This document shows positions 2,970-54,588 of a DNA stretch of 64,000 nucleotides, piece by piece. The stretch covers positions 248,001 to 312,000 of the forward strand of contig NZ_JAEHFX010000001.1 in assembly GCF_016623615.1 (NCBI RefSeq). Reading direction: 5' to 3'. The position numbers and the translations under genes are program-made. The number at the start of each line of letters is the position of its first letter. Positions within the stretch are counted from its first letter, which is position 1. Below the pieces are notes generated by a model. It had not been told where the DNA came from. It searched no databases and saw only the letters and a program-made list of their open reading frames with translations. The DNA is from Adhaeribacter terrigena (GTDB taxonomy: Bacteria; Bacteroidota; Bacteroidia; Cytophagales; Hymenobacteraceae).

Positions 2970-4997
2970 ATGGATTTTAAATTAACATCTGAATTTCAAC
3001 CGACCGGCGACCAGCCCAAAGCCATTGCGCAGTTAACGGAAGGCGTTTTGAACGGCGAACCCAGCCAGACTTTACTCGGTGCCACCGGTACCGGTAAAAC
3101 TTTTACCGTAGCCAACGTCATTAAAAATACCGGCAAACCTACGCTCGTGCTTTGCCACAATAAAACCCTGGCCGCGCAGCTTTACGGCGAATTTAAATCT
3201 TTCTTTCCCGAGAATGCCGTAGAATATTTTATTTCCTATTACGATTATTACCAGCCCGAAGCCTACATTGCCTCTTCCGATGTTTTCATTGAAAAGGATC
3301 TGGCCATAAACGAAGAGATCGAAAAGCTGCGTTTGCATTGCACTTCAGCCTTGCTTTCGGGCCGGCGCGACATTATTGTGGTGGCTTCGGTTTCGTGCAT
3401 TTACGGTATTGGCAACCCCGAAGAATTTGGCAAGAATGTGATCTTTATTTCGGCCGGGCAGCGCGCCAGCCGCAACAACCTGCTTTATTCTTTTGTGCAG
3501 ATCCTTTATAGCCGCACCGAAGCCGAATTTACGCGCGGAACTTTCAGAGTGAAAGGCGATACGGTAGATATTTACCCGGCCTACGCCGATTTCGCGTACC
3601 GCATTTATTTCTTCGGCGATGAAATTGAAGCCATCCAGCGGATCGACCCGTCCAGCGGGAAAAAGATTGGCGATGAAAGCAGCATTGCGCTCTACCCGGC
3701 AAACCTGTTCGTAACCGGCAAGGATACCTTGCAGCAGGCCATTAAAGAAATTCAGTTCGATATGGTGGCCCAGCACGAATATTTCGAGAAAGAAGGCCGT
3801 GCTGTGGAAGCCAAACGCATAAAAGAACGCACCGAATTTGACCTGGAAATGATCCGCGAACTGGGTTATTGCTCCGGTATCGAGAACTATTCGCGTTACT
3901 TCGATCGGAGGCAGCCCGGCGGCCGGCCGTTCTGTTTGCTCGATTATTTTCCTTCCGATTATTTAATGGTGATCGACGAAAGCCACGCTACTATTCCGCA
4001 GGTGCGGGCCATGTGGGGCGGCGACCGGGCGCGTAAAACCCAGCTGGTAGAATACGGTTTCCGTTTGCCTTCCGCCATGGATAACCGCCCGCTGACCTTC
4101 AACGAATTCGAAAGCATGCACCGGCAAACCATTTACGTTTCCGCCACGCCTTCCGATTATGAATTGCAGCGTTCGGCCGGGGTGGTGGTGGAGCAGATCA
4201 TTCGCCCGACGGGTTTACTGGATCCGGAAATTGAAATTCGCCCAAGCACTAACCAGATCGACGATTTGCTGGATGAAATTGACGAACGCATTAAGATGGG
4301 CGACCGGGTTCTGGTAACTACGCTTACCAAACGCATGGCCGAAGAGCTTTCTAAATATCTGGAAAAACTGCACATAAAAGTAAAATACATTCACTCCGAA
4401 ATTAAATCTTTGGAACGGGTGGAAATCCTGCGCGAATTGCGCCTTGGAACAATCGATGTGCTGATCGGGGTAAACTTATTGCGTGAAGGTCTGGACTTGC
4501 CGGAAGTTTCGTTTGTGGCCATCCTGGACGCCGACAAAGAAGGTTTCCTGCGCGATCAGCGTTCTTTGATCCAGACTGTGGGCCGGGCAGCGCGTAACGA
4601 ACGCGGCAAAGTAATTATGTATGCCGACCGCATGACGGGTTCCATGCAACGCACCATCGACGAAACGAACCGCCGCCGCATGGTTCAGATGGCCTACAAC
4701 GAAGAACACGGCATTACGCCAACCACAGTATTAAAATCGAAGGAAGAGATCTTTGAGCAAACCTCCATTGCCGATGCTAAAAAGCCGGAAGTGAAAATGT
4801 ATGCCGGTCCGGAAGAAGTTTCGCTGGCGGCAGAGCCGGTTATTGCGATCATGAAACGCGATGAGCTGGAAAAACTGATCCGCAAAACCGAAAAACAAAT
4901 GGAAGCCGCCGCTAAAGAACTCGACTTCCTGCAAGCCGCCAAATACCGCGATGAATTAGCCGAACTGCGCCGGATTCTGAAAACGAAACGCGACTAA
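2970..4997 (+). CDS. uvrB: Excinuclease ABC subunit B
   Basis: UvrB is the damage-verification helicase subunit of nucleotide excision repair, loaded by UvrA and partnered with the UvrC nuclease. The 675-aa protein is the normal length. Visible features are Walker A GATGTGKT (residues 37-44), the DNA-pinching hairpin region starting YYDYYQPEAY (about 90-100), the DESH box near residue 335, helicase motif VGRAARN near 535, and a C-terminal UvrC-binding UVR motif with ELDFLQAAKYRDE. A near-consensus -7 TATCTTTA lies at 2943-2950. The gene is monocistronic, closed by its own terminator. Confidence 0.98.
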   Translation: MDFKLTSEFQPTGDQPKAIAQLTEGVLNGEPSQTLLGATGTGKTFTVANVIKNTGKPTLVLCHNKTLAAQLYGEFKSFFPENAVEYFISYYDYYQPEAYIASSDVFIEKDLAINEEIEKLRLHCTSALLSGRRDIIVVASVSCIYGIGNPEEFGKNVIFISAGQRASRNNLLYSFVQILYSRTEAEFTRGTFRVKGDTVDIYPAYADFAYRIYFFGDEIEAIQRIDPSSGKKIGDESSIALYPANLFVTGKDTLQQAIKEIQFDMVAQHEYFEKEGRAVEAKRIKERTEFDLEMIRELGYCSGIENYSRYFDRRQPGGRPFCLLDYFPSDYLMVIDESHATIPQVRAMWGGDRARKTQLVEYGFRLPSAMDNRPLTFNEFESMHRQTIYVSATPSDYELQRSAGVVVEQIIRPTGLLDPEIEIRPSTNQIDDLLDEIDERIKMGDRVLVTTLTKRMAEELSKYLEKLHIKVKYIHSEIKSLERVEILRELRLGTIDVLIGVNLLREGLDLPEVSFVAILDADKEGFLRDQRSLIQTVGRAARNERGKVIMYADRMTGSMQRTIDETNRRRMVQMAYNEEHGITPTTVLKSKEEIFEQTSIADAKKPEVKMYAGPEEVSLAAEPVIAIMKRDELEKLIRKTEKQMEAAAKELDFLQAAKYRDELAELRRILKTKRD

Positions 4998-5096: not shown

Positions 5097-5118
5097 GCGA
5101 CTTCTGAGGCTTCTGGCA

Positions 5119-5343
5119 CAAGTGTTAAGCGTCAGCGTCACTTGAGCCTCACCATCTCAGAAAGTCTTCAGACTTTCATGAATAAAAAGTTGAGTTTTGG
5201 AGAAAACGGCTAATAATGCTGCAAGTCTGATGTCTTCCCGGAAACAACGGGTTTAAATCTGCCTGGAAAGATGGAAGTATACCCGAAGTCTGAAGATTTT
5301 TTGAAGTTGCTATGACCCACGTGACGCTGACGCTTAACACTTG
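5119..5343. repeat. 225-bp inverted-repeat element, family IR-A
   Basis: Perfect 23-bp terminal inverted repeats (CAAGTGTTAAGCGTCAGCGT then CAC) lie at 5119-5141 and 5321-5343. Inside them are subterminal copies of TCTTCAGACTT (near 5163) and its inverse AAGTCTGAAGA (near 5285). There is no ORF. A second member with the same architecture is at 51041-51214. The form resembles a MITE-like or structured intergenic repeat; no transposase is visible in the window. Confidence 0.7.
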
Positions 5344-5384
5344 CGTCAGTAAACTCGCCCCGTAAAATTTTTACAGTTTTTCAG

Positions 5385-5470: not shown

Positions 5471-5490
5471 GTTTAAAAAGCTAGCGTTTT
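5462..5490 (+). repeat. R29 copy fused to a terminator
   Basis: It starts with the AGTTTTT of the preceding stem and ends GCTAGCGTTTT, 8 bases from the cargo gene stop codon. Confidence 0.7.
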
Positions 5491-5498
5491 TGCAGCAA

Positions 5499-7484
5499 TT
5501 ATTGTACTACAATACGTTTAACAGCAACTTCAGCGTCAGTAGAAGCTTTCAGCATGTAAACACCGGAAGCTACATTTTTCAGGTTGATGGTTGCGTTATC
5601 TTTAGAAGCAGCAGCGCTGTAAACCAGACGGCCTTGCATATCGCGTACTTCCAGGTTCAGGTTACCGCCTTTCATATCTTTAGCAGATACGTTGAACACC
5701 CCGTTGCTTGGGTTCGGATAAACAGAAACCAGTTTCGCGTTCAGGTCTTCTTTCACGCCGGTGATGTTGGTCAGATTCGCTTCGAATAAGAAACGGTAAT
5801 CATCTTCTGCATCTTCAGGCGCGACAGGTGTTGTACCTGGAGTTGGCATTACGAAATTAGTATTAGGACGGTCTGCATCCCCATTTTGAACAGAAAACGG
5901 AAATGAAAAATCAACAGCAGTTGGTTTAGCTAACAAGCCTAAACCAATGAAATAATCCTGGTTTTCTACAATTGCCGGGGTTGGAAAATTGAAGGTAATA
6001 AAATTGTCAACATCTGCCGCAGTAAGCACCATATCCGCTGATCTTGCCAATTCGTTGCCACTAGCATCTACAACAATTGCATAAACTGTACGAGTAGCAG
6101 TTAATACAGCTGGGTTAAAAGCAGGGCCAGGAATATAAGCACGCATGCTGTTTACTTTTACTTTATTTGTAGCGAAGAAACGGGATAACCTTACGCCTGA
6201 ATTTGCAGCAGCTGTCTGACCAAATGGGCCAGGAATAGCAGTTTCAAGAACCGGATCAGTGGTAGCATCAGCCTGCATAGCATAACTTTCCGCGTTAGTA
6301 GAAACTACCTGTGTGAAATCTTTAGCGTTGTTTAAGTTTACATCATCATTTGGTACAGATACCTCTATGAAGTTAGTGCCGCTACCTGCTACAGGCATAT
6401 AGCTTGCAAAGGAAATAATAGTATCTGCACCAGCTGGTAAAGAGGCTAAAGTAACTGTAGTGCTAAAAGTATTATTTCCAGTTACATCCAGCGATATTAC
6501 TTTATTAGTAGCAGCAGCAGAACCTGTGTTTTTAATTAAGGCCTTTACAACATGCGGAGTACCAGTTGCTGTGGCTACTTTACCTTGAGAGAAAATCGCC
6601 TCAACAGAAAGGTCGTTTGGAGGTAAAGTAAAAGGGGTAAAGCGATAAGTACGGCCTGCGTCTGGTAAGAACGTATTACGTACAAAATGCAAAGCTGGAT
6701 CGCCTGGGAAATTAGGGTCCTGGTTTACAAATGTAGTAGCTGTCCAGGCTGTACCACTGCTTGGCTTTGATGCCAATACCCAATCAATTGGAGCAGCAGT
6801 TGAACCTTTTAATCCAACTAAAAGCGGTTGGCCGCCAGGAGTTGTTGCTGAATTTGAAACCCAGGTACCATATACAAGCTCGATATTGTTGGTTGTTTCA
6901 TAAAGCTTGATTTGGAACTGCATTGTTGTAAATTGTGCCGTAGCATTTGCAACTGTAGTTGCTTTATCAGCCAGGTTTTCGAACTGGATGGTTGTTACAC
7001 GGTTTGGAGCAGTACCCGTAGTTGCTACCCGGAATTCAGTAGGGTTAGCAGTTTGGTCAGCAGCACCCTGTAAGTCAACAAAGGAGCTGGCTGCAATAAT
7101 GTTCGTGTTTGCGGAATTGGTACTCGAAATCGGGTCTAATAACGCAGCAGAAGAAGGAGCTGTTGAACCCAATTTAATATATCCATTTGTATTCAATACA
7201 AACTGGGTAAATGCTTGGCCATTGTAATTAAACGTGAAGCCAATTGGCTGAGCTGCTGAGTTAGCATTATCGTTGTTTGCTACTGTAATTATAGTGCCTG
7301 TAGAGCCTAAATCTGTATAAGTACCAGCAACATTAGTAGAGTTTGCAGGGCGGTAATTCAACTGTGCCATTGCTGGCATTGCGCAAAAAGAACCTGCAGC
7401 AAGGGCTGCTAAAAGCATCCGGCGCTTTAATTTCGAAGCCTTGAAGCTTGGGCTTGAAATGGCATCTTGTAGATGTTTTTTCAT
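5499..7484 (-). CDS. Secreted T9SS type A cargo protein
   Basis: From the ATG at 7484 the protein is 661 aa. A longer frame opens at 7547, but the chosen start gives a typical signal peptide: basic segment KLKRR, hydrophobic LLAALAAGSFC and cleavage near AMAQ. The middle holds a beta-rich region and a CARDB-like stretch (about residues 290-400) with VKALIKNTGSAAA. The last 80 residues form a type A sorting domain with VYPNPSNG, DMQGRLV and a GVYMLKA ending, recognised by the T9SS and removed on export. Binding partners and substrate cannot be read from the sequence. The C-terminal module is more GC-rich than the body. Confidence 0.85.
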   Translation of the reverse strand: MKKHLQDAISSPSFKASKLKRRMLLAALAAGSFCAMPAMAQLNYRPANSTNVAGTYTDLGSTGTIITVANNDNANSAAQPIGFTFNYNGQAFTQFVLNTNGYIKLGSTAPSSAALLDPISSTNSANTNIIAASSFVDLQGAADQTANPTEFRVATTGTAPNRVTTIQFENLADKATTVANATAQFTTMQFQIKLYETTNNIELVYGTWVSNSATTPGGQPLLVGLKGSTAAPIDWVLASKPSSGTAWTATTFVNQDPNFPGDPALHFVRNTFLPDAGRTYRFTPFTLPPNDLSVEAIFSQGKVATATGTPHVVKALIKNTGSAAATNKVISLDVTGNNTFSTTVTLASLPAGADTIISFASYMPVAGSGTNFIEVSVPNDDVNLNNAKDFTQVVSTNAESYAMQADATTDPVLETAIPGPFGQTAAANSGVRLSRFFATNKVKVNSMRAYIPGPAFNPAVLTATRTVYAIVVDASGNELARSADMVLTAADVDNFITFNFPTPAIVENQDYFIGLGLLAKPTAVDFSFPFSVQNGDADRPNTNFVMPTPGTTPVAPEDAEDDYRFLFEANLTNITGVKEDLNAKLVSVYPNPSNGVFNVSAKDMKGGNLNLEVRDMQGRLVYSAAASKDNATINLKNVASGVYMLKASTDAEVAVKRIVVQ

Positions 7485-18198: not shown

Positions 18199-18594
18199 TC
18201 AGAAAGTAAGCTTGCGCCGAAGGAGGATGTAAAAGAGGCAAGCGCCTAAAACCGTACCGATCACATCGCTGATCACGTCGCCGGTTTCGCCGTGGCGGCC
18301 GCGTTTCATAACCGTTTGCAAAAGCTCAATAATAACGCCGAAAAAAAAGCAGATGACTACCGAAATACCAATGGCAAATTGCAGGAACTGGGCCCGGCCG
18401 TAATGAAAATATAAACTGCGGACCAGTAAAAAAGCCAGCAGCCCGAAAACGCCCACATGTGCCAGGGTATCGAAAGAAAGGAGTTTCCACTCGGGCGTTT
18501 TAGGAAGCGATTCTGAGGGCAGCAGCGTTAAAAACAGAATGACTGCTGCCCACAAAATTGCCGGGAAATGATAACGGAGAAAAGTAGTTACCAC
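18199..18594 (-). CDS. VanZ-like family membrane protein
   Basis: A 131-aa protein with four hydrophobic segments and the VanZ-like fold signature: charged turns FDTLAHVGVFG near residue 44 and GVIIELLQTVMKRGRHGETGD near residue 87. The start is GTG, 10 bases after gcvH, so it is translated from the same message. Function in this family is unclear; the name comes from teicoplanin resistance loci, but resistance cannot be assumed. Confidence 0.85.
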   Translation of the reverse strand: MVTTFLRYHFPAILWAAVILFLTLLPSESLPKTPEWKLLSFDTLAHVGVFGLLAFLLVRSLYFHYGRAQFLQFAIGISVVICFFFGVIIELLQTVMKRGRHGETGDVISDVIGTVLGACLFYILLRRKLTF

Positions 18595-18604
18595 AAAAGA
18601 ATAC

Positions 18605-18985
18605 TTAAGCGCCGATCAGTTGGCCATAAGCTTCGGCAGAAAGTAAACCTTCCAGTTCCGCTTTATCGTCGATGCTCATTTTGATCATCCAGCCGTCGCC
18701 GTAAGCATCGGAGTTTACCAGTTCCGGGTTAGAACCCAGTTTTTCGTTCAGTTCCAATACCGTTCCGGTAAGCGGCGAGAACAGGTCAGAAACAGTTTTA
18801 ACGGCTTCTACGGTACCAAAAACTTCGTCTTTGTTTACTTTTTTGTCAACCGTGTCAATGTCCACGTATACGATGTCGCCAAGTTCGCGCTGGGCAAAAT
18901 CCGTGATGCCGATTATCGCTGTGTCGCCTTCAATGCGTACCCATTCGTGTTCTTTGGTGTACTTCAGTTCGCTTGGTAAATTCAT
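18605..18985 (-). CDS. gcvH: Glycine cleavage system H protein
   Basis: GcvH is the lipoylated shuttle protein of the glycine cleavage complex. The 126-aa sequence has the lipoylation site in [10 protein letters not shown] with the modified lysine at residue 63, and the full-length family fold. The other gcv genes are not in the window. It lies between sprA and the vanZ-like gene; co-occurrence with sprA and ruvA is, from my knowledge of Bacteroidota, a recurrent arrangement rather than a functional link. Confidence 0.97.
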
Positions 18986-35623: not shown

Positions 35624-35836
35624 TTAGTTTGCTTTTGGTTCGTCTTTTACGCCGTTCTCTATTTCAGATTTAATTTCTTTGGTAGCATCTTTAAATTCGC
35701 GGATGCCGCGGCCCATGCCTCTTGCCAGTTCCGGGATCTTTTTAGCCCCGAACAACAAAAGCACAATTAATAAAATTACCATGATTTCGCCGGTGCCAAT
35801 ATCGCCGAGGAAAGCAAAAACGGTATTTAAAGCCAT
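35624..35836 (-). CDS. tatA: Twin-arginine translocase TatA/TatE family subunit
   Basis: A 70-aa protein with a short periplasmic N-terminus, one membrane helix ([15 protein letters not shown]), the [14 protein letters not shown] hinge and an amphipathic basic helix, then an acidic tail. It forms the pore-side oligomer of the Tat export system for folded proteins. tatC is not nearby. It leads the tatA-gatA-transglycosylase operon; a consensus -7 element lies 35 bases upstream. Confidence 0.95.
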
Positions 35837-42026: not shown

Positions 42027-42067
42027 AAAAACGCTACCGTTTTACTTCAGAAAACGGTAGCGTTTTT
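42027..42067. terminator. Bidirectional terminator made of two overlapping R29 copies
   Basis: Perfect 17-bp arms (AAAAACGCTACCGTTTT at 42027-42043 and its inverse at 42051-42067) form a hairpin between the convergent type B cargo and DUF4292 genes. Copies occupy 42028-42056 (minus) and 42038-42066 (plus). Confidence 0.8.
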
Positions 42068-50917: not shown

Positions 50918-50946
50918 ACTTTTTGAGCTGAAAGGCATACCGTTTT
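50918..50946 (+). repeat. R29 copy
   Basis: It begins ACTTTTTGAGC and ends GCATACCGTTTT, seven bases after the terminator T tract. Confidence 0.8.
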
Positions 50947-50990
50947 TTAATCCTGGAAAACGAAGCAAAAAGCTAGCTCATAAATCAAAG

Positions 50991-51032
50991 TTTCTCCGTA
51001 GCGTAGGGTTTAAACCCTATGCTACGGAGAAA
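50991..51032. repeat. 42-bp palindrome with GGGTTTAAACCC core
   Basis: TTTCTCCGTAGCGTAGGGTT and its inverse form one continuous palindrome with a single mismatch. It abuts the IR-A element. Confidence 0.75.
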
Positions 51033-51040
51033 CCCTTTCT

Positions 51041-51214
51041 GGCGCAAGTGTTCAGATGCAGGCGTCACTTGTGACTAAATCATGTTGGCAAGTCTTCAGA
51101 CTTGTGTAAATACTAACAACGGTTTTCAAAGTTTCCGTAAAAGATTCACGAAAGTCTGAAGACTTTTTCACCTGTATGAGTCACAAGTGACGCCTTCGGC
51201 TGAACACTTGCGCC
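51041..51214. repeat. 174-bp inverted-repeat element, family IR-A
   Basis: 36-bp terminal inverted repeats (GGCGCAAGTGTTCAG, four unmatched bases, AGGCGTCACTTGTGACT) lie at 51041-51076 and 51179-51214. AAGTCTTCAGACTTG near 51090 and AAAGTCTGAAGACTTT near 51151 are subterminal, as in the copy at 5119-5343. The shorter length and different arm details show it is a divergent member, not a duplicate. Confidence 0.75.
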
Positions 51215-51228
51215 AGCATATAGCCAGT

Positions 51229-51257
51229 ACTTTTGAGGCTTAAAATGATACCGTTTT
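51229..51257 (+). repeat. R29 copy after the IR-A element
   Basis: It begins ACTTTTGAGGC and ends TGATACCGTTTT. Confidence 0.75.
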
Positions 51258-51282
51258 TTTACTCTGGAAGGAAGTAAAAAAC

Positions 51283-51316
51283 AAAACCCTTCCGCTTTGC
51301 AGCAGAAGGGTTTTTT
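51283..51316 (-). terminator. Terminator of the rimP-nusA-infB operon
   Basis: Arms AAAACCCTTC (51283-51292) and GAAGGGTTTT (51305-51314); the minus-strand side continues with a T-rich run. Confidence 0.88.
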
Positions 51317-51350
51317 ATCTTAAAACGCTACCGTTTTTCGGTTAAAAATT
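51309..51350. repeat. Two overlapping, opposite R29 copies at the infB end
   Basis: One copy (51309-51337, plus) starts with the terminator's GGTTTTTT; the other (51322-51350, minus) ends on the infB stop codon. They share the palindromic AAAACGCTACCGTTTT. Confidence 0.75.
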
Positions 51351-54300
51351 ACAGCGTACGTTTTACTTCTTTCTCGGTGTATGCTTCAATAATGTCGCCT
51401 ACTACCAGGTCATCGAATTTCTTGATGCTGATACCGCATTCGAAACCGGTGCGCACTTCGGCTACATCGTCTTTGAAACGTTTCAGCGCCAGGATATCGC
51501 CGGAGTGAACCACGATACCATCGCGTATGATCCGGATCTTGGAGTTTCTGGTAATGGTACCATCGGTAACCATACAGCCGGCAATCGTACCCACTTTCGT
51601 GATCTTGAATACCTCGCGTACTTCTACGTTGGCTACAATTACTTCCTGAACGGTAGGGGCAAGCATACCTTCCATCGCGTCTTTCAGTTCGTTGATGGCG
51701 TTGTAGATGATCGAGTACAGACGGATATCGATCTGTTCCTGCTCAGCCAGTTTACGCGCATTCAGCGATGGACGAACCTGGAAACCGATAATGATCGCAT
51801 CGGAAGCCGAAGCCAGCAATACGTCGGATTCGGAGATCTGACCCACACCTTTGTTCAGGATATTTACCTGTACTTCCGGGGTAGAAAGTTTTAGTAATGA
51901 GTCGGAGAGTGCTTCTACCGAACCATCCACGTCACCTTTCACGATCACGTTCAGTTCCTTAAATGAACCGATAGCCAGACGGCGGCCGATCTCATCGAGG
52001 GTAATGTGTTTCTTGGTCCGCATGCTTTGCTCGCGCAGTAACTGGGTACGGTTGGTTGCCAGTTCGCGGGCTTCGCGTTCGGTTTCCATTACCTGTAACT
52101 TATCGCCGGCCTGCGGTGCGCCATCCAGACCCAATACCTGCACCGGCGTAGATGGAATAGCTTCCTTCATTTTTCTGCCGCGGTGATCGGTCATGGCTTT
52201 AACGCGTCCGAAATGAGAACCTGCCAAAACGATATCGCCAACTTTCAGCGTTCCGGTTTGCACCAGCACGGTAGTTACGTAACCACGGCCTTTATCCAGG
52301 GAGGCTTCAATAACGGTACCCAGGGCTTTTCTGTTCGGGTTTGCTTTCAGTTCCAGAATTTCGGCTTCGAGCAATACTTTTTCCAACAGGTCTGGAATAC
52401 CCTGGCCCGATTTGGCCGATATTTCCTGGCACTGGTATTTACCGCCCCACTCTTCCACTAAAACGTTCATCGCGGCAAGCTGCTCACGAATTCTGTCCGG
52501 GTTAGCGGCTGGTTTATCTATTTTGTTTATCGCAATTACAATTGGCGAACCGGCGGCCTGCGCGTGATTTAAGGCTTCTTTGGTCTGAGGCATCACGTCA
52601 TCGTCGGCAGCTACCACAATAATTACAACGTCGGTTACTTTGGCACCACGGGCACGCATCGCGGTAAACGCTTCGTGACCCGGGGTATCCAGGAAAGTAA
52701 TACGTTTTCCGGTTTCAGTAAGTACATCGTAAGCACCAATGTGCTGGGTAATACCACCGGCCTCACCAGAAGCTACGCGGGAATTACGGATGTAATCGAG
52801 CAGGGAAGTTTTACCGTGGTCAACGTGACCCATGATGGTAACGATTGGTGCACGATCCTGCAGGCTTTCCGGATCTTCTTCTTCCAGAATACTTTCTTCT
52901 TCTTCTGCGGAAAGGAATTCTACATCGTAGCCAAACTCATCGGTAATGATCGTGATCGCTTCGGCATCGAGACGCTGGTTAATGGAAACGAACATGCCCA
53001 GGCCTAAACAAACCTTAATTACTTCGTTCACCGACACGTTCATTAAAGAAGCTAAGTCGTTGGCCGAAATAAATTCCGTCAGTTTCAGCGTTTTAGATTC
53101 CGACTGTTCCTGCATGCGTTGTGCTTCGGTAGCATCGGCGATAGCAGAACGTTTCTCTCTTCGATATTTGGAACGGTTACCCTGGTTTCCGCCTTTGCCA
53201 CCGCTTAAGCGGGCCAGCGTAGCCTTGATCTGTTCCTGAATCTGTTTGTCGGTAACCTCCGGTTTCGGATTGGCTGCCTGAATTGGACGCTGGTTGCCTT
53301 GCCCCGGACGGTTACGATCGCCTGGACGACCCTGGCCACCGCCGCCCCCCGGACGCTGCCCACCTTGACCTTGTCCCTGGCCACCACCGCCTTGCGGACG
53401 ATCACCTGGTACGTTGGTAGTTGGGGCCTGCGTAATGATGCGCTTGCGTTTTTTCTTATCGCCTCCCTGGCCTGGCTGGCCCGGACGGTTTTTATTGTCG
53501 GAAGAAGCTACCGGCTTGCCGCCTTTTTTGCGGAAAGAATCTTTCGGTAATTCAATTTTACCCAGTACGGTTAAGCCTTTCAGCTGATCGCCTTTGGCCG
53601 CAATGGTTTCTACCGCATCGGCTGCCGGAGTTACCGGCGCTGCTGGTGGCGTTGGCGTGGCCGGAGCAGCAGGAGTAACCGGTGCAGCAGCTGCCGGTTT
53701 GGCGGGCTGTACTTGTGGTGCTTCTGTTTTAGGAGTTTCCGGCTTCGGATTTTCAGCCTTCGGCGTTTCTGCTTTTGGTGCTTCCGTTTTAGGAGCGTCC
53801 GGTTGCTTTGGCGCGGCAGCTACCGGCTGAACGGGTTCTGCTTTCGGTGCTTCTGGTTTTGGTGTTTCAACTTTTGGCGTTTCTACTTTCGGCATTTCTG
53901 CTTTCGGCGTTTCGGCTGGTTTTTCAACGGCCGGTGCCGGCGCTTCTGTTTTAGGAGCCGGGGCTGGATCGGGAGTTTTGGCTTCTGCCGGTTTAGGCGT
54001 TTCGGTTGCTTTAGGGGCTTCCGCTGCTTTTGGTGCAGCCGGTTTACCTTTGGCATCGAGGTCTATTTTACCTAATACTTTTATACCTGGCAATTTTACG
54101 CCGGTGGCCGGAGCTTCTTCCTCGGTTTTAGCCGGGGCGGCTGGTTTGGTTTCAGCAGAAGGGGCAGGCGCTGGTTCCGGAGCTGGTGAAGCAGGAGTTT
54201 CCGCAACTGGTTTAGCCGGGGCAGCAGGCTTGGCCGAAATTTCCGGTTCAGCTTCCTTGGCTTTTTTAACTTCCAGTTCCGGAGCTTTTTTCACTTTTTC

Positions 54301-54495
54301 CAGGGCTTCCAGTTTGTCGGCTACAGAAGATTCAAACGCTTTGAGCAATAACTTGAACTGTTCCTGGGTAATTTTTGCGGTAGGTTTATTCTCGATCTCA
54401 AAACCTTTGAGGGTCAGGAATTCTACCACAGAAGAAATACCTATGTTCAAAGTTTTTGCAGCCTGATTTAGCCTCATTGTTTTTTCTTCTGTCAT
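51349..54495 (-). CDS. infB: Translation initiation factor IF-2
   Basis: IF-2 is the GTPase that places initiator tRNA on the ribosome. From the ATG at 54495 the protein is 1,048 aa: an N-terminal IF2-N module ([19 protein letters not shown]), a long Ala/Pro/Glu/Lys linker with repeated PKAE and PKTE units (about 60-300), a Gly/Arg/Gln-rich stretch (about 345-400), a second IF2-N module, the G domain near residue 550 ([23 protein letters not shown]) and the C1/C2 domains. The low-complexity linker generates long antisense ORFs that are not genes. It is last in rimP-nusA-infB. Confidence 0.97.
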
Positions 54496-54588
54496 GCTCA
54501 ACTGTTCGGTATTATATATTTTAATGGTTAACAGGTAATTCGTTGTAAAATAGTAAACGCAAATTTCGGTAATTTTCCGGAAATAAGC

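Follow-up and report, generated by a model that had tools for sequence, protein, structure and literature searches.

REPIN-like elements with two hairpins per end in Adhaeribacter terrigena and other Bacteroidota, very probably moved by a REP-associated tyrosine transposase

Introduction

REPINs and BIMEs (PMC3116915; PMC3733652) are inverted doublets of hairpin-forming ends that lie in extragenic DNA and have the doublet as their unit; singlets and RAYT (REP-associated tyrosine transposase) genes flanked by copies are also reported, as are families with heterotypic partners. RAYTs themselves have been described as domesticated enzymes, i.e., the repeats spread and the gene stays put (PMC8266576). 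The elements analyzed here share this arrangement, singlets, heterotypic partners and flanked RAYT genes included. They differ in the foot, which is CTGG or CTAG instead of GTAG or GTGG and on which we rejected canonical GTAG REPs as their identity, in having two hairpins per end (~68 nt) versus one palindrome of 20-40 nt, in being present in tens versus hundreds of copies, and in that a RAYT gene can sit inside one pair of ends.

The transposase genes involved belong by their motifs to a class that has already been tabulated. In Quentin et al. 2018 (PMC6006769), TnpA-Y1 subclass 2.6 (RAYT group 5) is characterized by the motifs NH[LIV]H, WQ and YIH[QN]NP, a median length of 179 aa and a mostly Bacteroidetes distribution, and its genes in Bacteroidetes are flanked by weak "atypical secondary structures" with no GT[AG]G foot. 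Our elements share with those structures the transposase subclass, the absence of a GT[AG]G foot and the occurrence of copies elsewhere in the genome. Such structures beside subclass 2.6 genes are thus already known, and the element described here is a variant with defined anatomy; set against the text description of those structures, the two-hairpin anatomy, the pairing evidence, the distinct ends and the taxa are additions. None of the papers listed by our searches of open-licence literature describes the element in these genera.

Three further systems are comparable in part. The double-foot REPs of subclass 2.4, for which a central deletion of an inverted dimer was suggested as the origin (PMC6006769), resemble our 38-39 bp solo palindromes with a foot on both sides, one of which fits such a deletion (see below), but belong with another RAYT subclass and have another sequence. 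TIRYT elements (PMC3733652, PMC6006769) likewise carry a Y1 transposase within long inverted repeats and form moderately abundant dispersed repeats; however, 20 of 26 fall into subclass 2.1 and most have GGGG[AT][CG]A[CG] repeats, whereas here we see subclass 2.6 motifs and CTRG ends with paired hairpins. IS200/IS605 elements also rely on a Y1/HUH enzyme that acts on subterminal hairpins (PMC6006769), but here one end is the inverted copy of the other, and the transposase is a RAYT.

Results and discussion

Two inverted-repeat elements in the window

The window, a stretch of 64,000 nt from A. terrigena, holds two elements that are inverted repeats, as the earlier note had said. Their single-strand folding exceeds that of shuffled sequences (z -13.0 for 51039-51216 and -6.7 for 5113-5349), the best fold of the whole of element 2 being one long hairpin. 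The subterminal motif AAGTCTTCAGACTT (≤2 mismatches) occurs eight times in the window, always inside the two elements (0.29 expected; reached in 0 of 100 shuffles), while the short terminus GGCGCAAGTGTT (2 mismatches) is on its own not significant in the window (11 versus 7.84 expected, equalled in 13 of 100 shuffles). The two loci had been placed correctly, although the true ends lie 6 bp (element 1) and 2 bp (element 2) further out on each side (Table 1), where the outermost bases are CTGG...CCAG.

Table 1 Features of the two elements (window coordinates).
Feature	Position	Strand	Remarks
Element 1, whole	5113-5349	.	diverged copy, 237 bp
Element 1, left foot	5113-5116	+	CTGG
Element 1, H1, left arm	5119-5144	+	CAAGTGTTAAGC..GCGTCACTTG
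Element 1, H2, left arm	5160-5177	+	GAAAGTCTTCAGACTTTC
Element 1, H2', right arm	5284-5301	-	degenerate; 1/3 variable pairs kept
Element 1, H1', right arm	5318-5343	-	
Element 1, right foot	5346-5349	-	TCAG on + strand (degenerate CCAG)
Element 2, whole	51039-51216	.	178 bp
Element 2, H1, left arm	51045-51071	+	
Element 2, H2, left arm	51088-51105	+	GCAAGTCTTCAGACTTGT
Element 2, H2', right arm	51150-51167	-	AAAAGTCTTCAGACTTTC, read on - strand
Element 2, H1', right arm	51184-51210	-	

Element 1 lies between convergent ORFs, i.e., a + strand ORF that ends at 4997, which we take to encode UvrB, and a - strand ORF with its 3' end at 5499. Element 2 lies past the 3' end (51349) of the - strand ORF 51349-54501, presumably the gene for translation initiation factor IF-2. 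Each element is flanked on both sides by terminator-like inverted repeats. This position past gene 3' ends would suit structured RNA or transcription-end elements with a host function (terminator, mRNA stability) that were spread by ancient duplication and are now immobile; against such a function, Rfam gave no match at the gathering score in three element loci.

Two other repeats were seen in the window. The motif TA[CG]CGTTTTT occurs 24 times in the window versus 1.0 expected, with 19 of the 24 outside long ORFs even though ORFs fill ~85% of the window (e.g., 5482-5491, 35816-35825, 42027-42067 and 50938-51338), and several sites adjoin terminator-like inverted repeats. A separate near-perfect palindrome at 50990-51033 (GTTTCTCCGTAGC..GCTACGGAGAAAC) adjoins element 2; among the matches listed, this stretch recurs at seven other places in A. 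soli (87-94%), which makes it another dispersed repeat.

A dispersed family in Adhaeribacter and Flammeovirga

The "two-member family" of the earlier note is true only inside the window. A blastn-type search of the genome to which the window belongs (hereafter, G000; 4.43 Mb, 24 contigs) with element 2 gave 24 matches, both orientations counted. The copies include six two-armed ones, plus half copies, decayed copies and short solo palindromes of ~38 bp (e.g., CTGGCGCAAGTGTTTAGC...GCGTCACTTGCGCCAG), and an arm model recovered at least 23 arms. The search for the termini that had been proposed located the exact terminus CTGGCGCAAGTGTT 12 times in G000, thus beyond the two window loci, and 33 times in Adhaeribacter soli MA2; the reversed control gave no match in either genome. 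The terminus was present in 11 of 59 genomes searched, G000 included.

Two-armed copies measure 133-237 bp. A scan of named genomes, in which 40 of 98 matching stretches were examined, revealed paired ends 114-261 bp apart in four strains of Flammeovirga (Flammeovirgaceae), and, among the stretches examined, further ends in Fulvivirga and single matches in other genera.

Several centres of the A. soli elements (L085-L104) hold a second repeat, CCTCCCCT..AGGGGAGG, which also occurs beside copies in the window's genome. In Flammeovirga aprica, a ~390-bp repeat (L284, 5760-6150) makes up the majority of the listed matches in three further Flammeovirga genomes, and contig C25 (L382, ~18350-18790) has clusters of a ~60-nt repeat (..GTAATGG..AAGTAA..TTGACC..), recognized by eye, amid tRNA-like sequence, one of them seemingly inside a tRNA-like stretch.

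Each end is composed of two hairpins, and the two ends differ

The elements follow the plan CTGG, H1, H2, variable centre, H2', H1', CCAG. From the outside inward, an arm consists of the foot CTGG, CG, H1 (CAAGTG..CACTTG with an inner GC stem), a linker and H2 (NNNAGTC..GACTNNN), whereas the centre of the element is free and may contain other repeats. We aligned 52 arms, drawn from 26 of the 27 two-armed elements of the window's type (hereafter, A-type; five elements of other families were dropped) and from the transposase-bearing locus L129 of A. rhizoryzae. L016, L096, L102 and L142 contributed one arm only, and the A. soli single ends L090 and L092 and the 460-bp copy L104 were left unused. 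Counted by eye, the foot was CTGG in 41 of the 52 arms, CTAG in four and otherwise in seven. The GTTRRRY-like end letters had also brought integron attC sites into view, an identity that was dropped as the order is inverted and the GTTCAGC copies do not fit.

The named base pairs are kept in 95.6% of the cells of this alignment, and pairing falls to 17-42% when the partner is slid by 1-3 columns. In comparison with shuffles that do not keep the relatedness of the arms, there were 40 two-sided changes versus 14.0 ± 2.5 (0 of 500 shuffles) and five pairs with a two-sided change versus 2.7 (10 of 500); most of the changes fall at two H2 pairs (21 and 15 cells). The compensatory changes support local hairpins. 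An unguided consensus fold recovered five of the seven H2 pairs, and in the outer part it paired GGCGC with GCGTC rather than the named H1, which leaves the exact pairing of H1 less sure. Folded singly, four stretches form H1 and H2 (z -2.3 to -4.5).

The H2 stems of the two arms differ in all 24 elements with both arms aligned, e.g., GCCAG..CTGGC on one side and GGAAG..CTTCC on the other, and in 13 of the 24 both stems are perfectly paired at the three variable base pairs. Local hairpins are therefore conserved over and above the long palindrome. Across the linker and H2, all 30 A. soli arms compared, and 9 of the 10 from the window's own genome, resemble an arm in some other element more closely than the opposite arm of their own element. 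Given that arms differ within an element yet resemble those of other copies (39 of 40), it is a fixed pair of left end and right end that spreads as a unit. By eye, the Flammeovirga elements also have two different H2 hairpins.

Presence, absence and decay of copies

Synteny with A. soli is kept at both window sites, and no such element is present there; the family is thus neither confined to two loci nor shared at these loci with the relative. Between the aligned blocks, site 1 measures 366 bp in G000 versus 90 bp in A. soli, and site 2 measures 402 bp versus 244 bp, the latter holding a different repeat. No base-exact empty site was obtained for a canonical element, the intergenic DNA of A. 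soli being too diverged for junctions. In Flammeovirga, the copies compared were mostly common to several species and hence are old.

At one Flammeovirga locus, a 114-bp form in strain OC4 is matched at exactly the same position by a 39-bp solo in EKP202. In the solo, the left H1 runs directly into the right outer end, the product that a deletion between the CACTTG repeats would leave, and solos can be explained as collapsed long forms, if the change ran in that direction.

A tail-to-tail form of the element (CCAG, ~17 bp, CTAG, with the hairpins outward) was seen in OC4 (contig C21, 85271-85505) and in SJP92 (contig C99, ~7045-7213). In OC4, ~235 bp are inserted at a small palindrome that EKP202 has intact (85429), and this site is the one sharp case of presence and absence, but of a non-canonical arrangement. 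Elsewhere in OC4 (L344, 5547-6916, identical to L236), two element copies with intact outer ends and missing inner termini flank ~1 kb with a 299-aa ORF, presumably for a leucine-rich-repeat protein, where EKP202 has a single plain element without the ~1 kb and the ORF; this DNA could be element-borne cargo. The same 1370-bp pair of ends was rejected as a RAYT unit on its content, the 299-aa ORF. A 2320-bp pair in A. soli (G001:C12:87391-89710) was likewise rejected as an autonomous copy, as it is one element plus a further right end around a host gene.

These patterns bear on the idea of immobile elements with a host function. Hairpins that covary and the many Flammeovirga copies common to species are what it would lead one to expect; however, the window sites are element-free in A. 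soli despite kept synteny, exact termini number 12 versus 33 in two genomes of one genus, the arms of an element are heterotypic and are passed on together as left and right, and the elements are linked to transposase genes (see below). We therefore regard immobile elements with a host function as improbable, though slightly less so than the other alternatives.

No target-site duplication, and skewed flanks

The earlier note had likened the elements to "MITEs or bacterial structured intergenic repeats mobilised in trans", which was right in kind, as no transposase lies inside them, they look mobile, they are absent at the syntenic sites of A. soli, and relatives have a transposase gene enclosed by matching ends (see below). 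The target-site duplications it proposed to look for were not seen at element copies. Those of 3-9 bp were absent from 29 Hymenobacteraceae copies (at 2 bp, 1 of 29 versus 2.2 expected), and those of 2-9 bp from 16 Flammeovirga copies, orthologous sites included. IS200/IS605 elements likewise are not known to make a target duplication.

Classical MITEs would be internal deletions of a DDE-transposase insertion sequence that have kept its terminal inverted repeats and move as double-stranded DNA. Long terminal inverted repeats, the lack of a transposase ORF and two-armed copies of 133-237 bp agree with this, but the missing target duplications do not, matching ends were seen to enclose a Y1/HUH RAYT gene, and it is the local hairpins that are kept, not cross-arm complementarity alone. 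The MITE half of the comparison is therefore improbable, marginally more so than a host function, and the elements come closer to the REP/REPIN half.

The first 6 bp outside the elements are enriched in pyrimidines on the left and purines on the right (0.66 and 0.75 pooled versus 0.41-0.56 further out; the Flammeovirga copies include orthologous sites), which may reflect either a choice of target or an outer stem that has degenerated. In register, the two flanks showed no more inverted complementarity than swapped partners did (P 0.37 and 0.97). Direct repeats of 10-59 bp were found in the flanks at 5 of 29 Hymenobacteraceae copies versus 1 of 87 swapped and 2 of 166 nearby windows, and at 3 of 14 Flammeovirga copies versus 5 of 42 swapped and 2 of 83 nearby, with varying lengths and positions.

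RAYT genes inside or beside matching ends

The Pfam model PF01797 gave no match over its cut-off in G000 and matches in 12 of 12 relatives tested, IS200-type genes included. No RAYT was found in G000 at E ≤ 1e-20, and weak Pfam matches on its contig C18 (L137, L138) were not convincing as decayed RAYTs (best tblastn E 0.009). The transposase with matching ends that had been suggested was located in relatives, i.e., A. rhizoryzae and Flammeovirga OC4, but not in the window's genus among the G000 and A. soli loci examined.

In A. rhizoryzae DK36 (G018), a 183-aa ORF (L129, 1959-2510) lies between A-type ends (1849-2586). Its protein (P0001) has the motifs NHVH, WQ and YIHQNP, i.e., those tabulated for TnpA-Y1 subclass 2.6, RAYT group 5 (PMC6006769). 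In Flammeovirga OC4, a protein 54% identical to it is encoded between A-type ends (L343, 9465-10257); it has 183 aa from an internal ATG of a 200-aa ORF and the motifs NHIH, WQ and YIHDNP. EKP202 carries the corresponding unit at the same place, with an ORF that lacks part of the HUH motif. The closest relative of the L129 protein, 79% identical, is encoded in G027 (L142), where an element starts seven bases after the stop codon; a third, in G187 (L157), is 73% identical over 143 aa, with an element ~145 bp from the gene match on its 3' side. In the parts examined, there is one A-type RAYT-bearing unit per genome, which gives no sign of movement as a unit.

The NCBIfam model for REP-associated tyrosine transposases (NF047646) scored three proteins at 106.6, 97.1 and 102.6 bits (cut-off 80), the last being that of OC4 and the L129 protein also being above the cut-off, whereas the IS200 model gave the RAYT proteins 23.9, 22.9 and 23.4 bits (cut-off 55). 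A profile of ten RAYT proteins matched E. coli TnpA-REP (4ER8, E 7.5e-6) and an IS200-like transposase (2XM3, E 0.0025), unlike a search with the single L129 sequence, which matched no such structure. A tree of 32 RAYTs unites both A-type proteins of Hymenobacteraceae in one clade (98/91), whereas that of Flammeovirga stands apart on a long branch and does not group with them. The tree leaves out L135, L144 and loci without a motif-derived protein, e.g., L152-L155, L157-L163, L165, L171, L172, L178 and L179.

The association extends to other RAYT clades, whose genes have ends of the same plan in other letters, e.g., CTGGCGCGAGTTTAG..GTAACTCGTGCC with GGAGG..CCTCC hairpins, CTGGCGCGAGTCTTAG..CGACTCGTGCC with GGGGAGTC hairpins, and others. 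CTGGCGC was present in 30 of 60 RAYT flanks of 350 bp, taken from 30 loci that include three of A-type, versus 3 of 59 control windows. A covariance model of A-type arms (E ≤ 0.01) placed arms within 300 bp of 33 of the 45 RAYT genes counted, or 30 of 42 once the loci that fed the model were left out, and four arms elsewhere in the same 170 kb, two of which are far ends at L120 and L131, where the gene spans are too long. By script, an outward arm pair surrounds 16 of the 45 genes, several of which lie between two complete elements rather than within one pair of ends (e.g., L154, L159, L165, L178). The 45 exclude L150, L151 and L179, which repeat L129, L142 and L143, and the loci without a gene span (L119, L121, L123-L125, L127, L130, L134, L136-L138, L144 and L146-L148, of which L147 and L148 are IS200-sized genes); among the arm-searched loci outside the count, arms were present in L124, L130, L134 and L146 and in none of the others.

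At the genome level, arms were detected in 95 of 120 RAYT-positive versus 28 of 84 RAYT-negative genomes of the family, and at least ten arms in 46 of 120 versus 2 of 84, one of these two being G000. These 204 genomes were compared with kinship ignored, with a RAYT threshold of 1e-20 and with the best ≤23 arm candidates scored per genome. Counter-cases exist on both sides, i.e., 25 of the 120 RAYT-positive genomes have no arms, and 28 of the 84 without RAYT bear them. None of the A. soli RAYT loci examined (L117-L121) has an A-type arm within ~2 kb, except for one short motif with two mismatches in L120, which is enclosed by weakly related ends (24.9 and 22.7 bits).

That RAYT genes came by chance to lie in or beside a repeat family moved by another enzyme is the least probable reading, as genes are enclosed by matching ends in two families and RAYTs of other clades are flanked by the same architecture in other letters, although the RAYT loci with an A-type element proper are few (L129, L142, L157 and that of Flammeovirga), and G000 and A. 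soli, in which no A-type RAYT was found, have the element in abundance.

How the elements may spread and decay

Given the observations above, we consider it probable (about 0.8) that the elements belong to a Bacteroidota RAYT system of subclass 2.6 (group 5) as its REPIN-like, non-autonomous units, each end having a CTRG foot and two hairpins. The family very probably owes its movement to a REP-associated transposase, the gene for which is enclosed by these ends in related bacteria. Weighing against this reading are the lack of an A-type RAYT in G000 and at the A. soli loci examined, the age of most Flammeovirga copies compared, the EKP202 gene with its incomplete HUH motif, the separate placement of the Flammeovirga protein in the tree and the counter-cases among the genomes.

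If RAYT/REP and IS200 systems are taken as a guide (PMC6006769, PMC8266576), a Y1/HUH RAYT of subclass 2.6 would recognize the folded, single-stranded ends and may cut at the CTRG foot, which occupies the place of GT[AG]G in ordinary REPs; that CTRG and GT[AG]G both have R in third position is suggestive only. The enzyme, supplied in trans or from a copy that carries its gene between the same ends, would then spread the doublet, which would be copied or moved as a unit, probably by a single-strand route. Where no active RAYT remains, doublets would decay by mutation and by deletion to solos. G000, with its diverged arms, fits the decayed stage, and since no intact RAYT was found in it, its copies look like relics; those of the window may have been moved by a RAYT since lost from the genome. 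A. soli, with near-identical arms, fits recent activity, the main gap being that its examined loci include no A-type RAYT.

To the atypical structures already described beside subclass 2.6 genes, this analysis adds a defined anatomy supported by covariation, a left end distinct from the right one, a probable path of decay to solos and RAYT genes enclosed by matching ends in two bacterial families. Enzyme/end pairs are thereby ready for asking whether RAYTs cut ends with two hairpins, which feature takes the place of the GTAG guide and whether a RAYT is capable of moving as a unit. Tentatively, and at somewhat less than even odds, the Cytophagales may carry a class of HUH transposons of ~690-880 bp (CTRG-H1-H2-RAYT-H2'-H1'-CYAG), in which a group-5 RAYT would move as a unit with composite ends and each RAYT clade would have a hairpin code of its own; the repeats of 130-240 bp and the solos of 38 bp would be the non-autonomous and collapsed forms of this class. 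If so, the boundary that separates domesticated RAYTs from true single-strand transposons would become less sharp.
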